Assembly: GCA_903832055.1 (NCBI GenBank)
Contig: CAILAC010000012.1
Coordinates: 1-64,000, forward strand
DNA length: 64,000 nt
Direction: 5' to 3'
Source of the DNA: an uncultured Acidobacteriota bacterium
Lineage (GTDB): Bacteria; Acidobacteriota; Terriglobia; Terriglobales; Acidobacteriaceae
The translations under genes and the position numbers were made by a program. The notes under the pieces are model-generated. The model had not been told where the DNA came from. It saw only the letters and a program-made list of their open reading frames with translations, and made no database searches. Below are positions 37,299 through 50,765 of this stretch, in pieces (the stretch's first letter is position 1; each line of letters opens with the position of its first letter).

Positions 37299-37939
37299 AG
37301 TTGTGTGGCTTTGTCGAGCAGAAGCGATCGATCAAAGCGGTCTGGACAGCGGTAAGCTCTGCGGATTTGACCCACTTATCCGGCAGAGAGCAAAAGCGCA
37401 AAGTGAATTATCAGGATTGGCCTGGGGCCAGTGAAACCTCTTCCTGCCTTGAATTGATTTTCGGTCACGCACCCTCGCCTTTTGCGTACATTTCATTTCG
37501 AGTGGCTTGTGTATACACGGTAAGAAAATAGAGAACTCCGGCGACCCACAAAGGGGAGATAAATCATGTTATCCACTCAACGCCTGGTTTCAAGATCGGA
37601 AAACGGGGTTGCCTGAGGTCCGACTAACTAAGATAGGCCAGAGCATACGACGCACATTTCTGGAAGGTACAGCAGAAGGATTTTTACTTCCACTCCGGAA
37701 GGACCAATTAAAACCATGGTCCATCTCGACTCACTGACAACGGATTTCCTTTGGAGCAGGTATTTCGAAAAGGCAGCCAGCCAGGCTTTCGACGCTTCCG
37801 GCAAGAGCTCCGTTTCCCAAGCCGGAAGTAGTTCCGTTCTGCGCTCGAGCCGCTCCGCTTAAGTAAGTGAATAAACAGAAAGATATCTCTCCACTCGCCA
37901 TGCAAATAGGCGATTTTCTTCTGTATTCTTTGTATACCA
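37299..37939. other. Intergenic region, 641 bp, no convincing gene
   Basis: A 16-codon frame at 37566 (with GGGGAG upstream) and a 48-codon Ser-rich frame at 37716-37862 exist, but neither is persuasive. The LacI gene promoter should lie in the last 200 bp. No operator like those at 42462 or 48491 was found here. Confidence 0.4.
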
Positions 37940-38971
37940 ATGAAAAGAAATGCCCACCCAACACTGACCGAAGTTGCGCGCAAAGCTGGAGTCGGCACCA
38001 CGACGGTTTCGCGCGTGATCAATGGCGGAGAGCGGGTAAGTCCGGCGACTCTTGCGCATGTCCTCAGCGTTATCGAAACGCTGGGCTACATGCCCAATGA
38101 AGCGGCGCGCACCCTCAAGGGACATCGCACCAAAACCATTGGCCTGGTTGTTCCCAGCATTGCTGATCCTTTCTTTTCCAGTTGCGCAGAAGCAGCCCAG
38201 GCTGTTGCTCGTGCAAACGACTCCCTGCTCATTGTCACCACGACACAGAATGATCCAGCAATTGAGATAGAAAGCATCAAAGTCCTCATCCGCCACCGTA
38301 CCGATGGTCTGCTGATCGCCCCCGCCGACTCCAAAGGCAGCGCGCTCCGTGACCTGCTTCATCGCACTGTTATTCCTGTCGTCACGATTGATCGACCCAT
38401 TGAAAACTCATCACGTGGCTGCGTAGTGGCGGATAATTTCAAAGGCGCAAAAGCCGGCACAGATCACCTCATTGAACACGGATACAAGAGGATTGCCTGC
38501 CTTACGGGTGAACCATCCCTCTACACAATTGGTGAGCGCATCAAGGGATACAAGAAAGCAGTGGAAGGGGCTGGCCTGACTCCGATCCTCGATACCTCGG
38601 TTACGGACTACAAGTCTGCCGAGTTGGTGATTCGAAGATTGCTTGCGGGTCCGAATCCGCCTGATGCAATCTTCGCGCTCAAGAACAGCACGACCATCCA
38701 CACCTTTGAGGTTCTGCAAAAGCTCAATGTCGCAGTGCCGCAAACTGTCGCCCTTCTCGGATTTGACGACTTTGAATTAGCCTCGACTGTAAGGCCATCC
38801 ATCAGCGTCATCGAGCAGCCTGTCGAAAACATGGCGCGCATCGCTGCCGAGCAACTCTTCAGCCAATTTCTTGGCACCAATGGAGCTACACCGGAGCGCT
38901 CCAAATTGGGCGAGGTAGTCAAGCTGGAAACTCGTTTGATTCGCCGCAGTTCCTGTGGCTGCGGGGCCTGA
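37940..38971 (+). CDS. LacI-family transcriptional regulator
   Basis: 343 residues. The N-terminal helix-turn-helix is LTEVARKAGVGTTTVSRVIN, followed by a hinge helix GERVSPATLAHVLSVIETLG. The periplasmic-binding-protein-like effector domain spans about 60-335 (TIGLVVPSIADPFFSSCAEA, DGLLIAPADSKGSALRDLL, GYKRIACLTGEPSLYTIGER, VALLGFDDFELASTVRPSIS). The effector is most likely a sugar derived from mannosides, from its neighbours. It faces a minus-strand alpha-mannosidase gene across a terminator, and operator sites fitting a LacI-type protein occur upstream of the mannosidase and receptor genes. It ends SCGCGA, an unusual Cys pair. Confidence 0.93.
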   Translation: MKRNAHPTLTEVARKAGVGTTTVSRVINGGERVSPATLAHVLSVIETLGYMPNEAARTLKGHRTKTIGLVVPSIADPFFSSCAEAAQAVARANDSLLIVTTTQNDPAIEIESIKVLIRHRTDGLLIAPADSKGSALRDLLHRTVIPVVTIDRPIENSSRGCVVADNFKGAKAGTDHLIEHGYKRIACLTGEPSLYTIGERIKGYKKAVEGAGLTPILDTSVTDYKSAELVIRRLLAGPNPPDAIFALKNSTTIHTFEVLQKLNVAVPQTVALLGFDDFELASTVRPSISVIEQPVENMARIAAEQLFSQFLGTNGATPERSKLGEVVKLETRLIRRSSCGCGA

Positions 38972-38989
38972 GAACGGCTATCTGCTAAC

Positions 38990-39031
38990 AAAACAGCCGG
39001 CCTCGGGAGTTACCCCAAGGCCGGCTGTTTT
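38990..39031. terminator. Bidirectional terminator between LacI and mannosidase genes
   Basis: AAAACAGCCGGCCT (38990-39003) pairs with AGGCCGGCTGTTTT (39018-39031), 14 bp perfect. Its ends are A/T-rich on both sides, giving T-tracts in both directions. Confidence 0.9.
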
Positions 39032-39045
39032 GCGTTGAGCCATTG

Positions 39046-42000
39046 CTATTTTTGCGCAGGCGGGTAGTTCACCTTCAAGGTAAGAATCTCGAAGGGATGG
39101 ATGGGTGCGGTGACGGTGTCGCCTGTGACCGTCAATGCCTCGCCTTCCGGCTTCTCGAGCAGGTTTGTCAGAGTCGCTCCAGTCGCGCCGTTGGGTACGT
39201 GGAACTCGACATTGTCAGCCTTGCCCGCCCATTCGTACACGCGGAAGATCAAGCTATTGTCGTCCTCTGCCTTCTTGATCGCCGTCAAAACCACGGTCTC
39301 TGGCTTCACCGAGACGTATGAGTACTTCGCCGGCAGACTGCCCGTGTGGGCCTCAACCTGCATGGCCTGCAACTTGTAGTTGTACTCGTACCCGTGACGA
39401 ACGGTAAGTGCCTGCTTCCAATCTCCACCGTGTGGATAGAGAGCAAAGCTGAAGTGGTGATGTCCGCGATCCGCATCGGGGTCAGGTGACGTAGGCGAAC
39501 GCAGCAGCGAGATACGCAGCACGTTGTCCTTGGCATCGTAGCCATACTTTGATTCGTTCAACAGGCTCACGCCATGCTGCGCATCGCCGAGATCTGCCCA
39601 GCGCAGGGCCGGCACTTCAAACTGAGCCTGCTCCCACGTATTGGTGCGCAGAGTGGTTCGTTGAATGGTGCCATAGGGCACTTCATAAGTCGCCTTTGCG
39701 CTCGTGGCAGCAAGCGGGAATGCAGCCTTAAGCAGGACATGGGTCTCGTGCCAATCAATGTCATTGACGATGTTCAATTGGTCGGAACCAGCGGCCAGAG
39801 TGATATCTTGAACAAACTTCGAGCTCTGCCAACTCCGCTCCACTCGAATGACGGCTTGCATTGGTCCTTTCTCAATCAGCGTCACCGAATCTGCCTTGTC
39901 AATTGCGGTGAAGTGATCGAGCGTGCCGGGGTCGATGTTCCAGGCATCGTAGTCTTTCGGGAGATCCTTGAATGTCTGTAGCTGGTTGCCGCATGCGCCT
40001 GGAGCGAGAGTTTCGAATTTGCTCTTCTTGTCATACAGGCTGGTGATGCAGCCCGTCTGCTTATCGACGACTACCTTGAGCAATGCGTTTTCAAGAGTAA
40101 GCCCGTCTGCTTTCAAGTCAGTCACAAAAGGCTTGGTTCCCGGCACCACATGCAGCAGCGTATAGCCAAGGGAGGGAACGTCCTTCACATCCACGAGCAG
40201 GTGATACGCGTTGGTCTTGTCATTGCTGTGCATGATCTGGGAAGGAACAACATGGCTGGCTGCATCAAGGACCGTCACTCCGTTGGGAGAAGCGGCCGGA
40301 AGCTGGACATCAACCGTGATTGATCCAGACCGCTGCCATGCGAGTGGGTTGTAGACGAGTACCGGAACTCCACCGGCCCCTTTGGTATCGACATCCGCAT
40401 TGATTTCGTGCAACGCCGTCTGCGTGATCTCGTTGGTCGACCAGCGCACCTGGTCGTAGTCGCTTTGCGCATCCTTGTAAATGACGCCAATGCCGGAGCC
40501 GGCGGCAAGGTCATGGAAGACATTGAATGAAATCTTCTTCCACGCATCGGTCAACTCTTTTCCCGGATAGGGTTTGCCCTTGAGCCAGGCAAGAGATGCA
40601 TATTTCTCAGCATCGAGGGTCTGAATCTCACTCTCGCGCATGTTGCGCTTGTGGTTCGCCTGGGTGGTCATAACGCCGCGATGATATTCAAAATACATCT
40701 CGCTCTTCCAGGTAGGAATGGAGATTTTGCCATCGACGGGCGTAGGCGATTTGTAACCCTTGGCGATCGAGTCGTAGTCCCATGTAGTTGAGTCCGAAGC
40801 GATCTTGCTTTCGACATTGGTGAAGTAGCTTTGTGCGGTTCCGAACTTCATCGGCGGCACAACTCTTTCCGGCTGGATCCAATGATCTCCTTCATCGAGC
40901 ACAGCGCGTGTAGGACCGCCGCCATGATCTCCGACACCGTACAGATCCATGATTTCCGTCATGCCCGGCGCCTGCTTGCGCGCCATTGCCAGATCGTTCG
41001 TAAGTCGAACAGGATTGAGATTCCCATTTGCGTAGTCGTGCGGGAAGTAGGTCAACACCTTGCTGCCGTCTGGCGACTCCCACCAGAAGAGTTTGAAGGG
41101 CAGCTGATTGGTGTCGTTCCATGTCATTTTCTGCGTGACGAAATAGTCGATGCCCGACCGTTTGTAGATCTGTGGAAGCTGCCACGTGTATCCAAACGAA
41201 TCGGGATTCCAACCAATGCGAACGTCTACGCCATATTCCTTCTGGAACCATCGCTTGCCGACCAGAATGGTGCGAACCTGGGACTCGCCGTCTGGCATAT
41301 TCAGATCCGGTTCAACCCACATGCCACCAACGATCTCCCAGCGACCCTCTTTGATGCGCTGCTTGATCTGCTCATTCATCGCTGGATACTTATCAGCGAT
41401 CCAGGCGTTGTATTGGGCGGCTGATTGGGTGTAGGTGTAGTCCGGATACTCGTTCATCAACTGCAGTGCTGTACCGAAAGTGCGTTTGACGACATCGACA
41501 GTTTCTGTCCATGGCCAAAGCCACGCCGCATCAATGTGGGAGTTTCCGGTGAGGTGCAGCGTTGCCTGCTTCAGGAACGGCTTGAGAGCGCTGAGGCTTG
41601 CATGAGCCTGTGCGAGTGACGCATCAAATTTCGCAGAATCCTTGGTGTCGAGAGCGCTCAGATCAACGGCGCCGATTGCCTTCTCAAGCGTCGCCGTATC
41701 TCCAGCCGGATCTTTGGAGAGGCTTGGAATCAGCAAGGCAGCGGAAAGAATTTCTAGCCGTGTATCTTCGGGACTGGGCCTGTTCTCAGCAAAATCAATG
41801 CGCAGGTTGGCGCCCTCAAATGTCTTGTTTTCAACCGTGGGCAGCAGCTTTACGGCAACGAGAATCTTCTCTCCCGGCTTGGCCTTATCAAAGAGGACGA
41901 TGGGTTCAAGATCTTCGCCAAGCGCGACGCGGCGACCGTTGAAATAGAAAATCTCGGGGATGGGTCCGTTGCCGTTCGCATCAAAGGAAAACCATATCCT

Positions 42001-42363
42001 TGCGTCCGTCAGGTTATAGCCGTGATGGCTCTGCGGCACCTCAATGGTGCGTCGGAACCACACAGCTTGCTTGGAAACTTCCTGATGAGGTTTGACCTGC
42101 GTCCATGAGGAGTCATCGAGATCGGGTGATTCGCCATGAGGCAGGTCGCCCACATGCGAGCGCCACTGCTCGGCGGGAAGTTGATCCAATTCGCTGAGCC
42201 GTTGCACCACGGTACGCGAATGTTCGCTGAGTGATTGAACGACTTGTGCCGCTTGTTCCGGCGTCTGAGCCCCGGCTATCAGCGCGCCAATCGCGCTCGT
42301 CGCAAGTGAGGCCATTGCAATCGATGCAAGCCAACTTTTACTGGATCGAATTCTTACTTTCAT
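39046..42363 (-). CDS. Secreted alpha-mannosidase, glycoside hydrolase family 38
   Basis: 1105 residues. Signal peptide about residues 1-32. A beta-rich N-terminal part (WFRRTIEVPQSHHGYNLTDA, a jelly-roll like segment) precedes the GH38 catalytic domain: LHLTGNSHIDAAWLWPWTET with zinc-binding HID, RIGWNPDSFGYTWQLPQIYK with the nucleophile Asp (about residue 388) in NPDSFG, and HDLAAGSGI later. C-terminal beta-sandwich domains follow. It should release alpha-mannose from mannosides or glycans in the periplasm. SD AGGAG lies upstream of the ATG at 42361-42363. A LacI-type operator sits at 42462-42475 across its predicted promoter. Confidence 0.92.
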   Translation of the reverse strand: MKVRIRSSKSWLASIAMASLATSAIGALIAGAQTPEQAAQVVQSLSEHSRTVVQRLSELDQLPAEQWRSHVGDLPHGESPDLDDSSWTQVKPHQEVSKQAVWFRRTIEVPQSHHGYNLTDARIWFSFDANGNGPIPEIFYFNGRRVALGEDLEPIVLFDKAKPGEKILVAVKLLPTVENKTFEGANLRIDFAENRPSPEDTRLEILSAALLIPSLSKDPAGDTATLEKAIGAVDLSALDTKDSAKFDASLAQAHASLSALKPFLKQATLHLTGNSHIDAAWLWPWTETVDVVKRTFGTALQLMNEYPDYTYTQSAAQYNAWIADKYPAMNEQIKQRIKEGRWEIVGGMWVEPDLNMPDGESQVRTILVGKRWFQKEYGVDVRIGWNPDSFGYTWQLPQIYKRSGIDYFVTQKMTWNDTNQLPFKLFWWESPDGSKVLTYFPHDYANGNLNPVRLTNDLAMARKQAPGMTEIMDLYGVGDHGGGPTRAVLDEGDHWIQPERVVPPMKFGTAQSYFTNVESKIASDSTTWDYDSIAKGYKSPTPVDGKISIPTWKSEMYFEYHRGVMTTQANHKRNMRESEIQTLDAEKYASLAWLKGKPYPGKELTDAWKKISFNVFHDLAAGSGIGVIYKDAQSDYDQVRWSTNEITQTALHEINADVDTKGAGGVPVLVYNPLAWQRSGSITVDVQLPAASPNGVTVLDAASHVVPSQIMHSNDKTNAYHLLVDVKDVPSLGYTLLHVVPGTKPFVTDLKADGLTLENALLKVVVDKQTGCITSLYDKKSKFETLAPGACGNQLQTFKDLPKDYDAWNIDPGTLDHFTAIDKADSVTLIEKGPMQAVIRVERSWQSSKFVQDITLAAGSDQLNIVNDIDWHETHVLLKAAFPLAATSAKATYEVPYGTIQRTTLRTNTWEQAQFEVPALRWADLGDAQHGVSLLNESKYGYDAKDNVLRISLLRSPTSPDPDADRGHHHFSFALYPHGGDWKQALTVRHGYEYNYKLQAMQVEAHTGSLPAKYSYVSVKPETVVLTAIKKAEDDNSLIFRVYEWAGKADNVEFHVPNGATGATLTNLLEKPEGEALTVTGDTVTAPIHPFEILTLKVNYPPAQK

Positions 42364-42437
42364 TGAAAGTCTCCTGGTCTCTTTGGCAAACGTTTCGGCG
42401 AGGCGAACCGCGCAACATCATACCCAAATCAATGCGA

Positions 42438-42467
42438 ATTATACGGCTCCGAGGGTACTTATGGAAA
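42438..42467 (-). promoter_or_regulatory. Candidate mannosidase promoter overlapped by LacI operator
   Basis: On the minus strand TATAAT (42443-42438) is a perfect -10 and TTTCCA (42467-42462) 18 bp upstream is a 4/6 -35, lying inside the operator. Start site would be about 42430, 67 bp upstream of the ATG. Operator over -35 is the classical arrangement for repression. Confidence 0.55.
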
Positions 42468-42475
42468 CGATACCA
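42462..42475. promoter_or_regulatory. LacI-type operator, site 1
   Basis: TGGAAACGATACCA fits the symmetric pattern TGG-A-CG-T-CCA centred on CG, typical of LacI-family operators. The same 14-mer in reverse is at 48491-48504. Confidence 0.75.
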
Positions 42476-42527
42476 TTTGAAAATTCACTTTTTGCTTGTT
42501 CTTAAGTTCAGGTGATTGAAATAGCCG

Positions 42528-43490
42528 TCAGCGCGGCTTTGGCGGGGGCACTACAGGCAGGTAGGGATTGGGTGTCGCGCTTGAGGAATGAGTGCCATTC
42601 AGTCGGGCGCAGATCTCAAATTCGTGGCGAGCTGAATCCATTGCTCCCTGCTTGCGATACAGGGTACCCAGCTTGAAATGGAGTCCCGAACTATCCGGCG
42701 AGAGCGATACAGCCCGCTCCAACTCAACCTGCGCTTTGGAGAGGTCTTTCTGTGCCTGGTAAGCCGTGCCCAATTCTTCATGCGTTTTCGGGTTATTCGG
42801 AGCTATCGCAGCAGCCTGTGCGAGATAGGATATCGCCTTTTCCAGATCGCCTTCATCGGCGAGAAGTGACCCCAGGTTCAGGAAGGGCTGCGCATCCAGG
42901 GGAGTATGGCCCTGCCATTCAATCGCAGTCAGGAAGGCTGCCTTGGCTTCAGTCGACTTATCCAACTCCTTCAGACACAGACCAAGGTTATTCTCCGCTT
43001 CAACATAGTGCGGATGCAGTTCCAATGTGCGTTCAAATGCAGTGGCCGCTTTCTCGAATAGGTTTTCGTTATAACGCGTCCTGCCCAGCAGATACCAGGC
43101 ATTGGCATCGTTTGGAGTTTCAGCAATCACTTCGTTAAACCACTTGTCGGCGTCTACATAATCGGCCAGGAGCACATAGTCTGAGGCTACGGTCATGAAC
43201 TCTTCTGCGCGCGGATGCCGATACTTCGCGCCAGCAGTAAATTCAGCGAGTGATTCCTTGGCCTTTTGCTCACGGAAGAGCACATACCCTAAGAGAAAGT
43301 GCGCATCTGGGGAAGAGGGATTTGTGGAGATATAGGTACGAAGCGACGCTTCAGACTGCACAAGTTGACCTGAAGCGAGCAGAGCGCGTGCGGCAGCAAG
43401 GGGGTCGGCCTGAGACAAGGCCGATTGCTGGGTGAACCCGAGCAGCGCCAAGAGGAAAGGAAGCGCGGCAGCAGCTGCAGGAGCGTTCAT
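42528..43490 (-). CDS. TPR protein, secreted or periplasmic
   Basis: 320 residues from the ATG at 43488-43490, which directly follows the stop of the preceding TPR gene (one base between, TGAG-ATG), so translation is coupled. A signal peptide (ALPFLLALLGFTQQSALSQA, about residues 9-28) is followed by TPR helices: SEASLRTYISTNPSSPDAHF, NAWYLLGRTRYNENLFEKAA, HYVEAENNLGLCLKELDKST, NPKTHEELGTAYQAQKDLSK, GLHFKLGTLYRKQGAMDSAR. It ends in a Pro-rich tail (VVPPPKPR). The protein probably scaffolds partners in the periplasm; the partner is unknown. The gene is 164 bp upstream of the GH38 start. Confidence 0.88.
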   Translation of the reverse strand: MNAPAAAAALPFLLALLGFTQQSALSQADPLAAARALLASGQLVQSEASLRTYISTNPSSPDAHFLLGYVLFREQKAKESLAEFTAGAKYRHPRAEEFMTVASDYVLLADYVDADKWFNEVIAETPNDANAWYLLGRTRYNENLFEKAATAFERTLELHPHYVEAENNLGLCLKELDKSTEAKAAFLTAIEWQGHTPLDAQPFLNLGSLLADEGDLEKAISYLAQAAAIAPNNPKTHEELGTAYQAQKDLSKAQVELERAVSLSPDSSGLHFKLGTLYRKQGAMDSARHEFEICARLNGTHSSSATPNPYLPVVPPPKPR

Positions 43491-43491
43491 C

Positions 43492-44682
43492 TCAGTGAGC
43501 CTGATCTTTGATTGCGCCTGCGCCTGAGGCCTGCCCTGCGACGGTCTCTCGCGCTTCGCGTTGCAAGCGATTATAGGTCTGCATCTCTTGCTGAGCTTCT
43601 GCTGACTTCCCTTCCGACCGATAGACAGAGGCAAGCAGAAAATGGATAGCTGGCTCGCCGGGGCTTTCCTTTACCGCCATCTCGAGGTCTGGCTTGGCGT
43701 CTGCCTGCTTACCGAGGCGAATCAACGCACGTGCACGATCCACACGCGCCTGCATCAGCGTTGGGCAGCGATCGATGGCAAGATTCAATTCTGCGAGCGC
43801 ATCGTCGTTTGATTCGTTGGCCTCCAGCATGGAGTTCGCCAGCTTCCAGTGCGCCGCACAGTTATTGGGATCAACGGATAGCTCGGCCTTGAATTCCGTC
43901 TCCGCCGATCCCCACTTACCAATGAGCCAATACGCATTAGCCATGTGCATGTGGGTACCCGGCTGCTGGGGAGCCAGGTCAACCGCTTTCTTGTATTCCA
44001 GGAGGGCCAGATCGTAATTGTGCATGCTTTCGTCGATCTCACCTGAAATCTCGTGCGCAACCACTGAATTGGGGTCGATTTCATTGATCTTGCGCAATGC
44101 GTCCTGTGACATTTGCAGGTATGTCTTACCGAGCGAATACCAGGCCTGCTGGTCCTTGGGGTTACGATTCAAGTAGTTGCCCAGCGTCTGCGTTGCTTCC
44201 TGATACTTTCTTAGCCTGATCTGGACCTGAGCCAACGCTAATGCAGCCTGATCGTCAGCAGGGTTTGCGTTGACAGCGGCACGGATAAGTGGCTCTGCCT
44301 TCTCGCTCATACCCAGTTGAAAGTAGCTCATGCCGAGCATGGCGGCAGCAGTTGGCATCTTTTCGTGAAGTTTGAGACCACGCTCCAATATCTCAGCAGC
44401 ATGGGAAAAATCATGTTCGTTGAAATAGAGCATGCCGAGATTGTTATAAGCGGCTGCCAGATGCGGAGCGAGCTTGATGATGGCGCGGTATTTCTCAATG
44501 GCGGTAGCGCTGTCATTACGCTGCTGAGCTGACTTTGCCTGAGCGTAGAGCTGCTCCACCTGAGGCGTCACCTCATCCTCTTCCGCTTGCGCCCAGGAGG
44601 TAGACGCAGTGGAGAACATGACAATTGCAAGCAGACAAACCGGGATTCGCAGAAGTGCGCGGAGATGGACAAGCAGCTTCAT
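43492..44682 (-). CDS. TPR protein, secreted or periplasmic
   Basis: 396 residues. Signal peptide about 1-32 (LLAIVMFSTASTSWAQ). At least eight TPR units follow, e.g. AAAYNNLGMLYFNEHDFSHA, AAAMLGMSYFQLGMSEKAEP, AWYSLGKTYLQMSQDALRKI, VAHEISGEIDESMHNYDLAL, HMHMANAYWLIGKWGSAETE, AAHWKLANSMLEANESNDDA. A Gly/Ala-rich stretch ends the protein. No catalytic domain. It precedes the second TPR gene by 1 bp and lies between the receptor and mannosidase genes, suggesting a role in the same sugar-uptake system; binding partners and function are not identifiable. Confidence 0.88.
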   Translation of the reverse strand: MKLLVHLRALLRIPVCLLAIVMFSTASTSWAQAEEDEVTPQVEQLYAQAKSAQQRNDSATAIEKYRAIIKLAPHLAAAYNNLGMLYFNEHDFSHAAEILERGLKLHEKMPTAAAMLGMSYFQLGMSEKAEPLIRAAVNANPADDQAALALAQVQIRLRKYQEATQTLGNYLNRNPKDQQAWYSLGKTYLQMSQDALRKINEIDPNSVVAHEISGEIDESMHNYDLALLEYKKAVDLAPQQPGTHMHMANAYWLIGKWGSAETEFKAELSVDPNNCAAHWKLANSMLEANESNDDALAELNLAIDRCPTLMQARVDRARALIRLGKQADAKPDLEMAVKESPGEPAIHFLLASVYRSEGKSAEAQQEMQTYNRLQREARETVAGQASGAGAIKDQAH

Positions 44683-44763
44683 CTATCACGATTATAAAGG
44701 AACGTGTGGACCATCGCTGAACGCGGAAGAGAGTGCAGCGGTGCGTATCTTGAGCAAAAAGAA

Positions 44764-44786
44764 ACCGGGCTGCGCGGCAGCCCGGT
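44764..44786 (-). terminator. Rho-independent terminator of the TonB receptor gene
   Basis: On the minus strand ACCGGGCTGC (44786-44777) pairs with GCAGCCCGGT (44773-44764) around a 3-nt loop, followed by TTTCTTTTT. It comes 24 bp after the receptor stop and would separate receptor and TPR transcripts. Confidence 0.85.
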
Positions 44787-44809
44787 GGAAGCGATGAGCA
44801 AAGGTGAAG

Positions 44810-47800
44810 TTAGAATTCCAGTCGGAAGCTGACCTGGCCCTGACGATTGGGTGTACCTGCGTTATTACCAGTATTCACGACTCGGCCAAAGTTACCGGTG
44901 AAGACACCATCCTTGAAGCTATTGTCATCGATGTTGGTGTCTGGTCCGTTAAAGATGGTCCGGTTGAACGCGTTGAAGTAATCCACTTGCAGGATGCCGG
45001 TTAGATGTTCTCCAATGAAGAACTTCTTTCTGGCATTGAGGTTTTCGTTGTAGAAATTCGGGTTGCGAAGCTCTGAGTAGTTCCTCTTTGCATTGCCAAG
45101 GGTGTAGGAAGTGATTGGGGCGAATGCATTCGGGTTAAAGATTTGAGCTGTGGCAGACTTACCGACGAAGAAATCCCTCGCCCGCTTGTAGCTCGCAGTA
45201 CCCAGACTAACTGAATTGACCCGGTTGGGCCGATTGGTGTTGTTTGGAATACCGGTAACACCGGTTCCGACGCCAAATGCCGTTCCAGCTTCATAGTCAA
45301 GAATCCACGCCACCTGCCAACCACCCAGTATCTGACCGGTGATCCCATGGTTATTGAGGTACTTCTTCTTGGGACCGATCGGGAGTTCGTAGGTTCCGCT
45401 GACCTTGAGAGTCTGCGGCTCATCCGCGCCTGAAATTGACCATTCCGGCTTCTGGTTGTACTTGTTTTGGACACCGTTTTGGAAGCTTGAGAAGCCGCTG
45501 CCCGTGTTATCCATCTGATGCGAGAGTGTGTATCCCGCCAGGAAGGCCAGGCCGTTGGTAAACCGCTTTTCGAGCTCGATCTGCCCACTCTGGTAGTACG
45601 CCGTGCCCGAGGCCTCAAAGTTGTTTGAGATGTTGGAGTACTGAGGGTAAGGAGCAAGTGCCTGAGCAACCGTTGCCGACCCGCCAAAATCGTTGACAAA
45701 GTTCTGGTATGGCAGTGGAACACCATCCAACGATGTTTGATCAGGAGCAAAAGCATCTGTGAGCTTGGCTCCCAGAGTTAGATTCGTGGGATTGATCTGG
45801 TTGATCGGGTTAAGTTGGCTGGGCAGATGAATGACGCGGTTGCCTAGCCATGCCACGGTGAGGAACATGTTATAAGGCAGTTCACGCTGATAGTTTGCGT
45901 TCCACTGTTCAGCGTAGGGCGCGTAGCCGTCCTTCTTACTGAAAGCATTGATTTGCGTGCCGGCACCCAATGCCGTATTGAACGGCGTAGCACCAGGATT
46001 TGGCATTTGGTTTGTATCCCAGCTTCCAAAGGAGGATACATTGCTGCCCGAGCTATTGCGGGTATAGGAACCGACCAGCAGATTGCCATAATTGACTGCA
46101 ACCTTGTTGGTTCCATATTCATATGCGCCGCCATTCAGGAATGCAATGGCAAAGCCACCCTGAACTACGCTCTTGTTGTTGATCTTGTAGGCAAAGCCGA
46201 TGCGTGGCCCAAAGTGTGTGTAGTGCAGGTCTGCCTTGGAATAACCGGCGCATCCAGTGCAGCTGCCAAATTTGGTTGCAGCACCAGCAATCGGGGAGCC
46301 CGATGCCCCAGCGTAATGTGGGTCGGTTCCGGTTGGATTGAAGAACACGACATTGTTATGCATTTCCGTGAAGGGATCCTGCAGATCCCAGCGCAGGCCG
46401 AGGTTGAGGGTGAGTTTAGACGTGAGCTTGATGTCGTCCTGGATATATGGAGACAGATCCCAATTGCGCAGCTTCAGCTCCTGCGAGTTACTGCGATTCG
46501 CAGAGTCAGGCAAGCCGAGCAGGAAGCTCGCAAAGGAGCTGCCGTAGCTACCAAAGTTGGGGTCAGTAACATCCGGCACCGAAGTGGTTTTGTGACTGAA
46601 GGCAAAGTGTCCGCCGGCAGTCTGTTCTTCGTTGTCATCCTGGTAGGATCGGCGGAATTCGGCACCGATGTTGAACGTCTGTCGTCCCTTGGTCCAAAGC
46701 CAGTTGTTCACAAGCGCGATACCGAGCTTGCGGTTGACTGATCCGGAGTTGGAACCGCCGGTTCCCCAGGAGGTCGGTGCATGCTGGCCGTCGAAGGTGA
46801 TGCTCGGAGGGATAACGCCGCCAGCGACTGCGGGGAAACTGTACTTGCTGAGGTTGAACTGATTGTTGATTTCGCCGATCCACCCAATGCCAGCTGTGGT
46901 GGCGAGATGCGGTGTGACGGCGTTGTTGTACGTGAGCAGGTACCCGCTGCCTTGCGAGGGAAAGTCGCGCAAGCTGTTGAGAGGGTTCGGCGGAAGCACG
47001 AACGGCGGATTATCAAAACCAACGTTGTGCTCGTGGTTATGCCACATGCTGAAGTGCAGGCTCTGTGTGCTGTTCAGCGTCTGGTCGACGGTGAAGCCCC
47101 AAACGTGCTGGATAGTCGGGTTTGGATAAGCCGCGAAGTTCTTGTTGCTCTCCAGACCATTGCTCAATCCCGGTCGATCAGGGTCGGGAAGGGACGGAAT
47201 CAGCAGGGCTGAATTTGCACTGATGCGATCAGGGCAGATCACGTTCATTTTGCCGTTGCATTCGAACTGCTTGCCGGTGGTGGGATCGTAGATGGGAATC
47301 GGGTTGCCTGAGCCATCAACGTAGTTGGTAAAGTCACCCGTCTTCATGGCAGCAGTGGGTACTGTCGAGACGTTCATGTTCTCGTTGTTGAGCTTGAACC
47401 ATTCCTGACTGTAATGGGCAAAGGTCTTGTCACGGCCGTTGTACAGGTGAGGAATCCAGACCGGCCCTCCTACCGTGAAGCCGTAATTGTTCTCGTGATC
47501 TGTGGGTGGTTTGTCGTGGACATTGTTCGTATTCCAGTAGTGGTTGTTAAAGAAGCCCACGGAATCAAACAGGCTGTTACGGTTGATCTCAAAGAGATCG
47601 CCGTGATAGTGGTTGGTGCCCGATGCCATCTGATAGGTCAAAGCGCCCTGGCCGAGACCAAATTGCGCGCTGAACGTGGAACGCTCGACGCGGAACTCCT
47701 GCACCATTTCGAAGGGAGGATTGAAGTTGGTGGTATAGCCTTCGGTTTCTGGTTGCGGAGCGGGGATACCGTTGTAGATGATTTCCTGTTCGAAATCGAC

Positions 47801-48379
47801 GCCGCCACCGATACGGTGGGAGAAGGTGTTGCCGGTCGTGCCGGGGGCGAGGAACTGAAGTTGGTCGATCTGGCGGCCGCGGCCGGAAACTTCGTTCGGC
47901 AACGCAGCTACGACTTCAGGCTCGATGGTACTGCCCATCTGCGGCTGAGTTGTATTCAAAGCGATCTGGTCTGAGGTGACCTCCACGGTATCCGTAGTGG
48001 CGCCAGTGGAGAGGGTGATGTCGACCGTCGCGATCGTACTCACTTCGACGGGTACATCTTTCTGTACGTCCTTTTTGAAGCCGGGAGCTTCTGAGGAGAT
48101 GGTGTAACGGCCCGGGTTGAGGCCTGCGACCACGTAGGTTCCAGCGCTCGAACTGACCAGGTGGGTGGCTACGGAGGTTTCCTGGTTGGTGATTGTGATT
48201 TTCACGCCCGGTACGACAGCGCCGGTGGAGTCAGTCACTGTTCCGGTGAGACCTGCGTTAGCCTGGGCGTTGGCAATTTTCTGCCCTGCAAAAAGCAGGC
48301 AAAGGATGCTCAACATCAGGATGGGGAGTTGTCTTGTGAACAGACTTATTGGGTGGGGCGTTGGGAACTGGCGTCTCAC
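44810..48379 (-). CDS. TonB-dependent receptor with N-terminal carboxypeptidase-like domain (Oar type)
   Basis: 1189 residues. Signal peptide to about residue 38 (IANAQA). Residues about 42-130 form a carboxypeptidase regulatory-like Ig domain (GLTGTVTDSTGAVVPGVKIT, GTYVVAGLNPGRYTISSEAP). The plug follows (NEVSGRGRQIDQLQFLAPGT, PFEMVQEFRVERSTFSAQFG, GALTYQMASGTNHYHGDLFE), then a long barrel ending GRVVNTGNNAGTPNRQGQVS and the terminal FRLEF. Oar-like proteins are the common outer-membrane receptors of Acidobacteriota, importing oligosaccharides by TonB energy. A full and a partial LacI-type operator lie 110-120 bp upstream of the start. Substrate inferred, not shown, to be a mannoside. Confidence 0.9.
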   Translation of the reverse strand: MRRQFPTPHPISLFTRQLPILMLSILCLLFAGQKIANAQANAGLTGTVTDSTGAVVPGVKITITNQETSVATHLVSSSAGTYVVAGLNPGRYTISSEAPGFKKDVQKDVPVEVSTIATVDITLSTGATTDTVEVTSDQIALNTTQPQMGSTIEPEVVAALPNEVSGRGRQIDQLQFLAPGTTGNTFSHRIGGGVDFEQEIIYNGIPAPQPETEGYTTNFNPPFEMVQEFRVERSTFSAQFGLGQGALTYQMASGTNHYHGDLFEINRNSLFDSVGFFNNHYWNTNNVHDKPPTDHENNYGFTVGGPVWIPHLYNGRDKTFAHYSQEWFKLNNENMNVSTVPTAAMKTGDFTNYVDGSGNPIPIYDPTTGKQFECNGKMNVICPDRISANSALLIPSLPDPDRPGLSNGLESNKNFAAYPNPTIQHVWGFTVDQTLNSTQSLHFSMWHNHEHNVGFDNPPFVLPPNPLNSLRDFPSQGSGYLLTYNNAVTPHLATTAGIGWIGEINNQFNLSKYSFPAVAGGVIPPSITFDGQHAPTSWGTGGSNSGSVNRKLGIALVNNWLWTKGRQTFNIGAEFRRSYQDDNEEQTAGGHFAFSHKTTSVPDVTDPNFGSYGSSFASFLLGLPDSANRSNSQELKLRNWDLSPYIQDDIKLTSKLTLNLGLRWDLQDPFTEMHNNVVFFNPTGTDPHYAGASGSPIAGAATKFGSCTGCAGYSKADLHYTHFGPRIGFAYKINNKSVVQGGFAIAFLNGGAYEYGTNKVAVNYGNLLVGSYTRNSSGSNVSSFGSWDTNQMPNPGATPFNTALGAGTQINAFSKKDGYAPYAEQWNANYQRELPYNMFLTVAWLGNRVIHLPSQLNPINQINPTNLTLGAKLTDAFAPDQTSLDGVPLPYQNFVNDFGGSATVAQALAPYPQYSNISNNFEASGTAYYQSGQIELEKRFTNGLAFLAGYTLSHQMDNTGSGFSSFQNGVQNKYNQKPEWSISGADEPQTLKVSGTYELPIGPKKKYLNNHGITGQILGGWQVAWILDYEAGTAFGVGTGVTGIPNNTNRPNRVNSVSLGTASYKRARDFFVGKSATAQIFNPNAFAPITSYTLGNAKRNYSELRNPNFYNENLNARKKFFIGEHLTGILQVDYFNAFNRTIFNGPDTNIDDNSFKDGVFTGNFGRVVNTGNNAGTPNRQGQVSFRLEF

Positions 48380-48683
48380 GAATCCTCCTAAGATTTTAGT
48401 GAATGTGCTTGTTCAATTGCTTTTGGCATTGGCGACAGGCTGATTCCTGTCTGTCCGGTTCTTGCATTATGGAAACGATGGGGAACAAAGTGGTATCGTT
48501 TCCATAAAGCGCAAATCCTAAGTCCCACCTCGAACACCTGTCAAGGTTTTTTTCAGAAAAGGGCATCCAGCCCATCGTTTGGTTGATGCGACACGCCAGA
48601 TTTTGTGGTGCAACCAGAAGGTTTGACCCACGACACGAGGTTTCCTCGCACATCAGAAACTCTCAGAGCGTTTCAAGCCGACC
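48380..48683. other. Intergenic region with operators, no gene
   Basis: 304 bp between the receptor start and the CRTAC stop. It contains the promoter and operators at 48466-48504; nothing else was recognised. Confidence 0.6.
48466..48504 (-). promoter_or_regulatory. Receptor promoter with LacI-type operator and half-operator
   Basis: CATAAT on the minus strand (48471-48466) is a 5/6 -10 box. A full operator TGGTATCGTTTCCA (48491-48504) overlaps the -35 position, and a related TGGAAACGAT (48470-48479) has its centre 21 bp away, about two helical turns. A repressor could bridge the two sites. Confidence 0.65.
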
Positions 48684-50570
48684 TCAGGGCAGGGGGTTGG
48701 CAGATGCGACCGGTGGGGTTTTCGCAGGAGGGACAGAACATGGCATCCCGGCGCAAAGCGAACCGGTGATCCCCTGCCCTTCCTTCACGAGATAGACGCG
48801 GTCAACGGCTGGAAGAACAACTGTCTCTTTGCGTCCCGAGGGCCAGTGGATCTCAGCAGTTCCGGCATCCGTTGCGTCACCTAGTCCAAAGTGAAGACGC
48901 TGATCGTTGGAGGATGCATAGCTGCCGCCGCTCATCACATCTTCCCGGTGACGCATTCCGTTCGCTTTCAGGTACACGCTGGCACCGATGGCGTCACGCG
49001 GGCTACCGTTGCCGCCTTCGAGCTTCAGGGTGACCCAGTGATGGTGGTCGGGGCTGACGTTGCGCAGCAGCCTGGGCGGACCATCCTCTGGATTGATGAT
49101 CACATCGATCCTTCCATCGTTGAACAGATCGCCGAAGGCCGCGCCCCGGCCAGAGATCACCGCCGCTTCACCTGAACCCCTGACCGGCGTTATCTCTTCA
49201 AACTTGCCATCTCTGGTGTTGTGAAAGAGTTGCAGGCGCTGCTTGTACGATGTGCCCCAATTCGAGGTGTCCGCCGCCGGATAGATATGGCCATTGATCA
49301 TCATGAGGTCAAGCCAGCCGTCGTTGTCATAGTCGAGGAAGCCAGTACCCCAACCCAGAAAGGGCATGGACTTTCGGCCAACGCCGGCGCGCACGCCTAC
49401 CTCAGTAAAGCTGCCACCGCCATCATTGCGGTAGAGCAGCTTGGCTTCTTCAGAGAAGTCAGTGATGGCGACATCAAGCAGGCCATTGTTTAGATAATCG
49501 CCAACGGCCACACCCATGGCTGCAACCTCGCGGCCGTTTTCATTGAGCGCAATCCCTGAGGTGAAGCTCGCGTCTTCAAAGGTGCCGTCGCCACGATTCA
49601 GGTAGAGATAGCTCTGAGTGGAATCGTCGGCGATCAGCAGGTCCAGTTTGCCATCATTGTTCAGATCGGCAAATACAGGCGTGATGCCGTAATACCGATT
49701 CGCTTCATCATCCACGCCCGCCTTGGTGCTGACATCGGTGAACGTGCCATCGCCATTGTTGTGGAAGAGGTGGTCAGGCTCGCCTTCCAGGTTCTTGGGG
49801 CCACACATCACAGATACGCCGTGAAACTCACAGAACGAAAATCCGGTTGCCTTGGTCTTCTCGTATGGCAGGTTGTTCCGGTCAAAATGGACGTACCCGG
49901 TGACGAAGAGGTCAGGTCGGCCATCGCCGTCGTAATCGCCCCAGGTTGCGCCGGCCGACCAGTTGCCCAGCGTGACGCCCGCCTTCTCTGCGACATCAGT
50001 AAAGGTGCCGTCATGGTTGTTGTGAAAAAGGCGATTTTTACCCCAGTTGGCCACGAAGATATCTGGCCAGCCGTCGTTATCGTAGTCTGCGATGGCCACG
50101 CCAAAGCCCCAACGGTCGTTGGTGACCCCGGCTTTGCTGGCCACGTCGGTGAAGGTGCCGTCGTGGTTGTTGTGGAAAAGAGCCGCGTGGGGCATGGACT
50201 CTTTGCCATCCAACGCGTCAAAAGTCGCGCCGTTGACCAGGTAGATATCCAGCCATCCGTCCTGGTCGTAGTCGATCAGGCCGACCCCGGATCCGTTGGT
50301 TTCGAGGATCAGCTTCTTTTCGGCGGTGCCCATGGTGTGGGTCCATTCAGACAGGCCGGCCGCTTTGGTCACATCGCTGAAGAGCATGGGGCCCGTTTCC
50401 AGGAAGCCTCCGGCGGTAACGGGCACGGCAGTCGGAGTTGGCTTGCCGGCTGGCTGGGAAGCCTGGATGCCTTCCGCCGCCTCGGGGGGATTGTGCCCGG
50501 CAAGCGCCATTGCGGAAGCCGTCCATGCGAGGCTGATGCCGCTCAAGACCAGCACTCTTACCAGGAACAA
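48684..50570 (-). CDS. CRTAC1/ASPIC-UnbV protein with FG-GAP repeats
   Basis: 628 residues from a TTG at 50568-50570 that gives a signal peptide (FLVRVLVLSGISLAWTASAM) and has GGAGGG at 50577-50582; the frame is open further upstream. Seven or so FG-GAP/VCBS calcium-binding repeats make a propeller (GVGLIDYDQDGWLDIYLVNG, GVAIADYDNDGWPDIFVANW, GATWGDYDGDGRPDLFVTGY, FLDYDNDGWLDLMMINGHIY), and the C-terminus is the ASPIC/UnbV domain (WVTLKLEGGNGSPRDAIGAS, HFGLGDATDAGTAEIHWPSG). These are secreted or surface proteins common in Acidobacteriota, often next to TonB receptors and TPR proteins; their biochemical role is unsettled. It is the upstream gene of this minus-strand cluster. Confidence 0.88.
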   Translation of the reverse strand: MFLVRVLVLSGISLAWTASAMALAGHNPPEAAEGIQASQPAGKPTPTAVPVTAGGFLETGPMLFSDVTKAAGLSEWTHTMGTAEKKLILETNGSGVGLIDYDQDGWLDIYLVNGATFDALDGKESMPHAALFHNNHDGTFTDVASKAGVTNDRWGFGVAIADYDNDGWPDIFVANWGKNRLFHNNHDGTFTDVAEKAGVTLGNWSAGATWGDYDGDGRPDLFVTGYVHFDRNNLPYEKTKATGFSFCEFHGVSVMCGPKNLEGEPDHLFHNNGDGTFTDVSTKAGVDDEANRYYGITPVFADLNNDGKLDLLIADDSTQSYLYLNRGDGTFEDASFTSGIALNENGREVAAMGVAVGDYLNNGLLDVAITDFSEEAKLLYRNDGGGSFTEVGVRAGVGRKSMPFLGWGTGFLDYDNDGWLDLMMINGHIYPAADTSNWGTSYKQRLQLFHNTRDGKFEEITPVRGSGEAAVISGRGAAFGDLFNDGRIDVIINPEDGPPRLLRNVSPDHHHWVTLKLEGGNGSPRDAIGASVYLKANGMRHREDVMSGGSYASSNDQRLHFGLGDATDAGTAEIHWPSGRKETVVLPAVDRVYLVKEGQGITGSLCAGMPCSVPPAKTPPVASANPLP

Positions 50571-50765
50571 CGCATACCCTCCAACGCCTCTGAGTGTAGA
50601 ACATCCGCGCCGAGGAGAGAAGTTGCCCTCCTCGGTCGAAATCAACACATGGGAAGGCTGACGCGGCGATCGATGGAAATGCGGACCAGTCAGCGACCTG
50701 TCACCATTTCCGCGGCAGAAGCCTTTCAAGAGACTGACAATGATTTCGACGCGGTTTGTGGATGG

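Follow-up and report, generated by a model that had tools for sequence, protein, structure and literature searches.

Two minus-strand genes of this locus, one for a GH38 alpha-mannosidase and one for a TonB-dependent receptor, share a short palindromic word near their promoters, and the question is whether a single regulator reads both copies, and which one. A sequence-only reading of the window (the whole stretch of 64,000 nucleotides that was analysed) had placed the exact 14-mer TGGAAACGATACCA at 42462-42475 on the plus strand and at 48491-48504 on the minus strand, each beside a sigma70-like promoter of a minus-strand gene. Both positions and orientations were confirmed in our analysis, and such promoters were present at both sites, with TTTCCA-18-TATAAT at the first and TTGACA-18-TAGGAT at the second (Table 1). 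The reading that we favour, at a probability of about 85%, is that gene 37940 encodes a local LacI-family repressor of alpha-mannoside use in Acidobacteriaceae, as judged from sequence comparison. For this we computed the sites, their rarity and conservation, their linkage to a LacI subgroup, their placement in promoters and the families of the target genes.

Table 1. Features around the LacI-family gene and the shared palindrome (positions in the window).
Feature	Position	Strand or sequence	Remarks
LacI-family regulator P0001, 343 aa	37940..38971	+	Recognition helix VGTTTVSRVIN; proposed repressor
GH38 alpha-mannosidase P0002, 1105 aa	39046..42363	-	Target 1
GH38 gene promoter	42438..42467	-	TTTCCA, 18 bp, TATAAT; -35 within operator 1
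Operator 1	42462..42475	TGGAAACGATACCA (+)	Before GH38 gene; site also before GH38 in relatives
TPR protein	42528..43490	-	Pfam TPR; start by simple gene caller, longest frame to 43634
TPR protein, 396 aa	43492..44682	-	Pfam TPR
Terminator-like hairpin	44764..44786	-	10 pairs, T-rich tail; between receptor and TPR genes
TonB-dependent receptor P0003, 1189 aa, GTG start	44810..48379	-	CarboxypepD_reg and OMP_b-brl_4 (Pfam); target 2
Second operator, probably decayed	48470..48483	TGGAAACGATGGGG (+), CCCCATCGTTTCCA (-)	One half perfect
Operator 2	48491..48504	TGGAAACGATACCA (-)	About +5 to +18 of predicted receptor transcript, start point estimated from the -10
Receptor gene promoter	48515..48544	-	TTGACA, 18 bp, TAGGAT

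The product of gene 37940 belongs to the LacI/GalR family, as the Pfam LacI helix-turn-helix was found at residues 8-53 (E 2.3e-16, 59.7 bits) with Peripla_BP_1 and Peripla_BP_3 C-terminal of it, all above cut-off. Its gene points toward the mannosidase and receptor cluster from the opposite side. The recognition helix is kept in most of the closer homologues, with VG-TTTVSR as the common part, and the helices of six aligned LacI paralogues from the same genome are unlike it. Homologues with an xMTVSR helix (L137, L140, L141 and L142) had an intergenic site in none of four cases, and three loci (L115, L116 and L118) have the same recognition helix, yet no exact site. The upstream region of the lacI gene itself (37740-37960) holds no operator with fewer than four mismatches, the best candidates having four, and so gives no sign of autoregulation; in relatives, six of 47 targets are LacI-type genes. 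The mannosidase carries the N-terminal, middle and C-terminal GH38 domains of Pfam (E down to 1.4e-78). Among plasmid sequences, the receptor is matched best by a gene with 71% identity, annotated as TonB-dependent receptor, which Acidisarcina polymorpha (Acidobacteriota, Terriglobia, Acidobacteriaceae) carries on a plasmid next to GH38 and GH125 genes.

Within the window, the motif is not conspicuous. The relaxed form was at chance level (four matches with at most one mismatch, 2.41 expected), as was the promoter scan (six found, 6.3 expected), and the 14-mer with up to three mismatches was slightly above chance (seven versus 3.35 expected); the weight of the operator evidence thus lies in the whole assembly and in the relatives. 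In the complete assembly of 4,568,361 bases, TGGAAACGNTNCCA occurs at these two places only. The relaxed palindrome TGGNANCGNTNCCA occurs at 11 places in the 4.57 Mb, compared to five for the reversed control pattern, and nine of the 11 are inside long open frames. The remaining two are the 42462 and 48491 sites, so that the genome scan proposed earlier, for intergenic copies near TonB receptors and glycosidases, returned two intergenic places of 11, both in this cluster. With only two intergenic matches, the regulator appears to be local and not global, and a global cre-like regulon was rejected on the same count. Operators of PurR and CcpA have an AAACG core and a central CG, as has the operator here, and the PurR helix is similar (TTTVS); those proteins are global or purine regulators, in contrast to the two intergenic sites found in this genome.

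The looser pattern TGGWAWCGWTWCCA, with one mismatch allowed, gave nine places in the same assembly versus five for the control, and the seven mismatch-bearing places were mostly within long frames. One of the one-mismatch sites, TGGAAACGATTCCC at G000:C16:1092763-1092776 (L217), immediately precedes a frame that encodes GH57 and DUF3536 domains. It is a weak candidate for an extra target, and it also falls within a stop-to-stop frame of 255 aa. A second GH38 gene is present in the genome (G000:C16:883004-886327, 64% identical to the first); no W-type site, exact or with one mismatch, was found beside it. A different LacI-type gene is located about 4 kb from this second gene.

Relatives were chosen from 300 sampled genomes of the family, of which 101 had a LacI homologue with an E value no worse than 1e-60. 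Scanning 300 family genomes for the motif with one mismatch, which served for orientation only, gave matches in 106, many of them singletons, and three low-similarity loci from the contig scan, in Bacteroidia, Ferruginibacter and Eubacteriaceae, were left out. Around 60 homologues, we collected stretches of at most 20 kb each (1.16 Mb in total), with 41 homologues at about 53% identity or more and 19 at 40-50%; gene limits were set by a simple gene caller. In these 60 loci TGGNANCGNTNCCA matched 92 times, whereas none of 59 palindromes permuted from the same letters matched more than five times (mean about 1.4). The loci were picked by LacI homology, and the counts are not independent because the loci are related to each other. 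Intergenic DNA makes up 15.6% of the stretches and holds 85 of the 92 palindromes, 81 of which lie at most 320 bp ahead of a gene with the proper orientation. Eleven of the 60 loci were without an exact match, seven among the 41 closer and four among the 19 more distant ones.

The genes behind these sites are of few kinds. Beside the 41 closer homologues, the 47 targets comprised 18 receptors with the same barrel, 11 ROK proteins, 10 GH38 enzymes, six LacI-type genes and two others. Beside the more distant homologues there were 40, including 12 same-barrel receptors, up to eight genes with GH38 domains, two GH92, four MFS and five LacI-type genes, as well as GH3 and GH31. An alpha-mannosidase and outer-membrane uptake are therefore among the targets both in the own genome and in the relatives, and the target families (receptor, GH38 and ROK) point to alpha-mannosides as the substrate. 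Four of the ROK proteins were scanned; they resemble glucokinase models and stay below every curated NCBIfam cut-off, and mannokinase activity of the ROK targets is a guess. No ROK gene with an operator was found in the own genome in the assembly-wide scan with TGGNANCGNTNCCA.

Fifty intergenic sites gave as consensus the 16-bp palindrome RTGGWAWCGWTWCCAY. At the two free positions, A or T was present in 95 and 94 of 100 half-sites, and the flanking base is a purine at 84 of 100 positions; the remaining ten operator positions were fixed beforehand by the search pattern. The consensus is an even palindrome with a central CG, as expected of LacI/GalR operators. Among the sites of L084-L123, an asymmetric form with A at all four free positions on one strand was the commonest (14 of 50), and the window has it likewise; kinship of the loci could account for its prevalence.

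Additionally, we compared the presence of the site with that of the regulator in the upstream regions of the best 30 GH38 loci (from 167 genomes with a match) and the best 30 receptor loci (from 51). Where the genome encodes a LacI homologue with 50% identity or more, an exact site was found before GH38 in 10 of 15 loci, the window included (9 of 14 without it), whereas none of the 15 loci from genomes lacking such a homologue had one. Similarly, the receptor gene had an exact site in 17 of 21 loci with the homologue, the window included (16 of 20 without it), versus 3 of 9 loci lacking it. Fisher tests gave p = 0.0002 for GH38 and p = 0.03 for the receptor, values that serve as guides only as the genomes are related. 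The three site-bearing receptors from genomes lacking a homologue of at least 50% do have LacI homologues of 42-49%. Despite a close LacI homologue, five GH38 genes, one of them with a one-mismatch site, and four receptor genes, including that of the Acidisarcina plasmid, had no exact site. Several of the scored genes are far from lacI, e.g. in G017, G119 and G070, which argues that the link is more than neighbourhood.

The best surviving alternative is that the palindromes are real LacI-type operators which are bound mainly by another LacI protein of the same genome, or by a global cre-like factor. It gains from the at least six further LacI-type proteins encoded in the assembly and from the homologues of 42-50% identity that also lie in palindrome-rich loci, indicating that several subgroups read similar sequence. 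We nevertheless regard it as improbable, since the six aligned paralogues have other recognition helices, a global factor would be expected at far more intergenic places than the two that exist, and the GH38 sites among the best 30 loci follow the closer LacI homologue as described above. The naming of the gene 37940 product as candidate regulator, which the sequence-only reading had marked as inference, is supported by the linkage to the palindrome, the co-occurrence with GH38 sites, the presence of the palindrome before some of the lacI genes themselves and the conservation of the helix, and we infer that this protein binds the sites.

The placement of the sites in the promoters was scored for those regions whose site had no more than one mismatch (11 of the 30 GH38 and 20 of the 30 receptor upstream regions). 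In all 11 GH38 regions the TTTCCA of the operator stands 18-19 bp ahead of a hexamer that shares five or more of its six bases with TATAAT; as background, a -10 occurs at a fitting distance at 2.2% of positions (130 of 5920, true promoters included). The mannosidase promoter combines a weak -35, TTTCCA, with a -10 of high quality, and relatives keep this combination. A different arrangement was found before the receptor gene, where 19 of 20 site-bearing regions have TTGACA separated by 17-18 bp from a -10-like hexamer that ends 7-11 bp before the first operator. Only L206 is without this element before the operator, and for one receptor region (L209) just 94 bp of upstream sequence was at hand.

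A half-site had been reported at 48470, with 21 bp between its centre and that of operator 2. Its position and spacing were correct, but the term needs amending: because relatives hold a second operator at 19-22 bp, the element is probably a second operator that has decayed, in which 3 of 10 specified positions differ, one half being perfect and the other degenerate. Together with operator 2 it forms a 16-nt inverted repeat with arms at 48464-48479 and 48495-48510. A full second operator (at most one mismatch), with 19-22 bp between centres, was found in 11 of the 19 site-bearing receptor promoters of relatives; weaker ones have two mismatches in L199 and three in L194, and the window has three at 21 bp.

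An operator over one -35 and another just behind the other start fit repression of both promoters, whose minus-strand transcripts are predicted to begin near 42431 and 48508. It is conceivable that the regulator activates the mannosidase promoter from the -35 site and represses the receptor promoter only, as the poor TTTCCA beside an excellent -10 is what is seen in promoters that need help. This we consider still less probable than the action of another regulator. The receptor operators behind a near-consensus promoter in 19 of 20 regions are placed for repression, the centre of the mannosidase site at about -37 is not the usual place of a class II activator, and a single protein that represses both genes is simpler. 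That the two 14-mers are alike by chance and have no regulatory meaning, as the near-chance counts of the relaxed motif within the window alone might suggest, is for practical purposes refuted by the concentration of the palindrome around LacI homologues, its intergenic placement, the co-occurrence and the promoter geometry.

For local repression by the gene 37940 protein we propose a scheme in which binding, repression rather than activation, the pairing of dimers and the effector are inferred. A repressor dimer would bind the 16-bp palindrome. At the GH38 gene, a repressor bound over the -35 hexamer would exclude RNA polymerase. Repressor on the receptor operator, which lies at about +5 to +18 behind the near-consensus promoter, would block either initiation or promoter escape. 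Many relatives have a place for a second dimer, which could bind 19-22 bp further on, two helical turns away and on the same face of the DNA; in the window this second site would be half decayed. A breakdown product of alpha-mannosides, in the simplest case mannose or a small manno-oligosaccharide, would release the repressor, and uptake and hydrolysis would be induced together. The inducer is most likely mannose or a small mannoside, judging from the target families alone.

The system has much in common with the local sugar regulons of the LacI/GalR family described by Ravcheev et al. 2014 (PMC4052901), namely an even palindrome with central CG, a regulator encoded close to the genes it controls, a role in sugar use, tandem sites whose spacing peaks near 22 bp and autoregulation in some orthologues. 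The paper gives peaks of intersite distance at 13, 22 and 32 bp, the last two being read as cooperative binding. Unlike the regulons described there, the core targets here are an outer-membrane receptor and GH38, and the own lacI gene is without an operator. The word acidobacteria is absent from the main text of that paper. As in Shewanella (manR I/II, PMC2996990) and Bacteroides thetaiotaomicron (ManR, PMC3878776), one regulator would govern transport across the outer membrane, the hydrolysis of mannosides and mannose kinase or later steps, a likeness in function. The ManR of B. thetaiotaomicron is a GntR-family protein, unlike the LacI-family protein here.

We found no paper on a LacI regulon of Acidobacteria in our searches of an open-access library. 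The present one is a well-supported, ordinary LacI-type regulon that is new in this group as far as these searches tell, and its uncommon part is the strictness with which two different promoter geometries are kept. A more tentative proposal, which we consider less likely than not, is that one regulator works through two fixed geometries across Acidobacteriaceae, a single operator at the mannosidase, with the -35 supplied by its half-site, and paired operators behind the receptor start, which would give an ordered induction, and that this is the first family-wide defined sugar regulon of the phylum in the literature searched. If true, the double-site receptor would be tightly held and the single-site enzyme released at a different inducer level. 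Acidobacteriota are abundant in soil and have many TonB-type receptors without a known substrate (38 to 172 first-look candidates in a sample of genomes). A motif that ties a receptor type to alpha-mannosidases and sugar kinases points to its likely substrate and offers a way to assign other receptors. The conserved promoters additionally provide clean -35/-10 examples and a candidate sugar-inducible promoter for this group.

The TPR genes had been put forward as regulon candidates beside the mannosidase and the receptor. The latter two stood, whereas the TPR genes may be outside the regulon because a terminator-like hairpin intervenes between them and the receptor gene. A TATAAT-like stretch was observed before the first TPR gene, and together with the hairpin this suggests that the two TPR genes may be transcribed on their own. 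Terminator-like matches in the region overall were not above those in shuffled sequence (7 versus 11.9). An operator half-site-like word, CATCGCTTCCA, is found at about 44784-44797, between the receptor stop and the hairpin, and may be there by chance. Upstream of the receptor, an FG-GAP/ASPIC-UnbV protein is encoded on the minus strand (48684-50729), and similar genes were found near the LacI homologue in several relatives.
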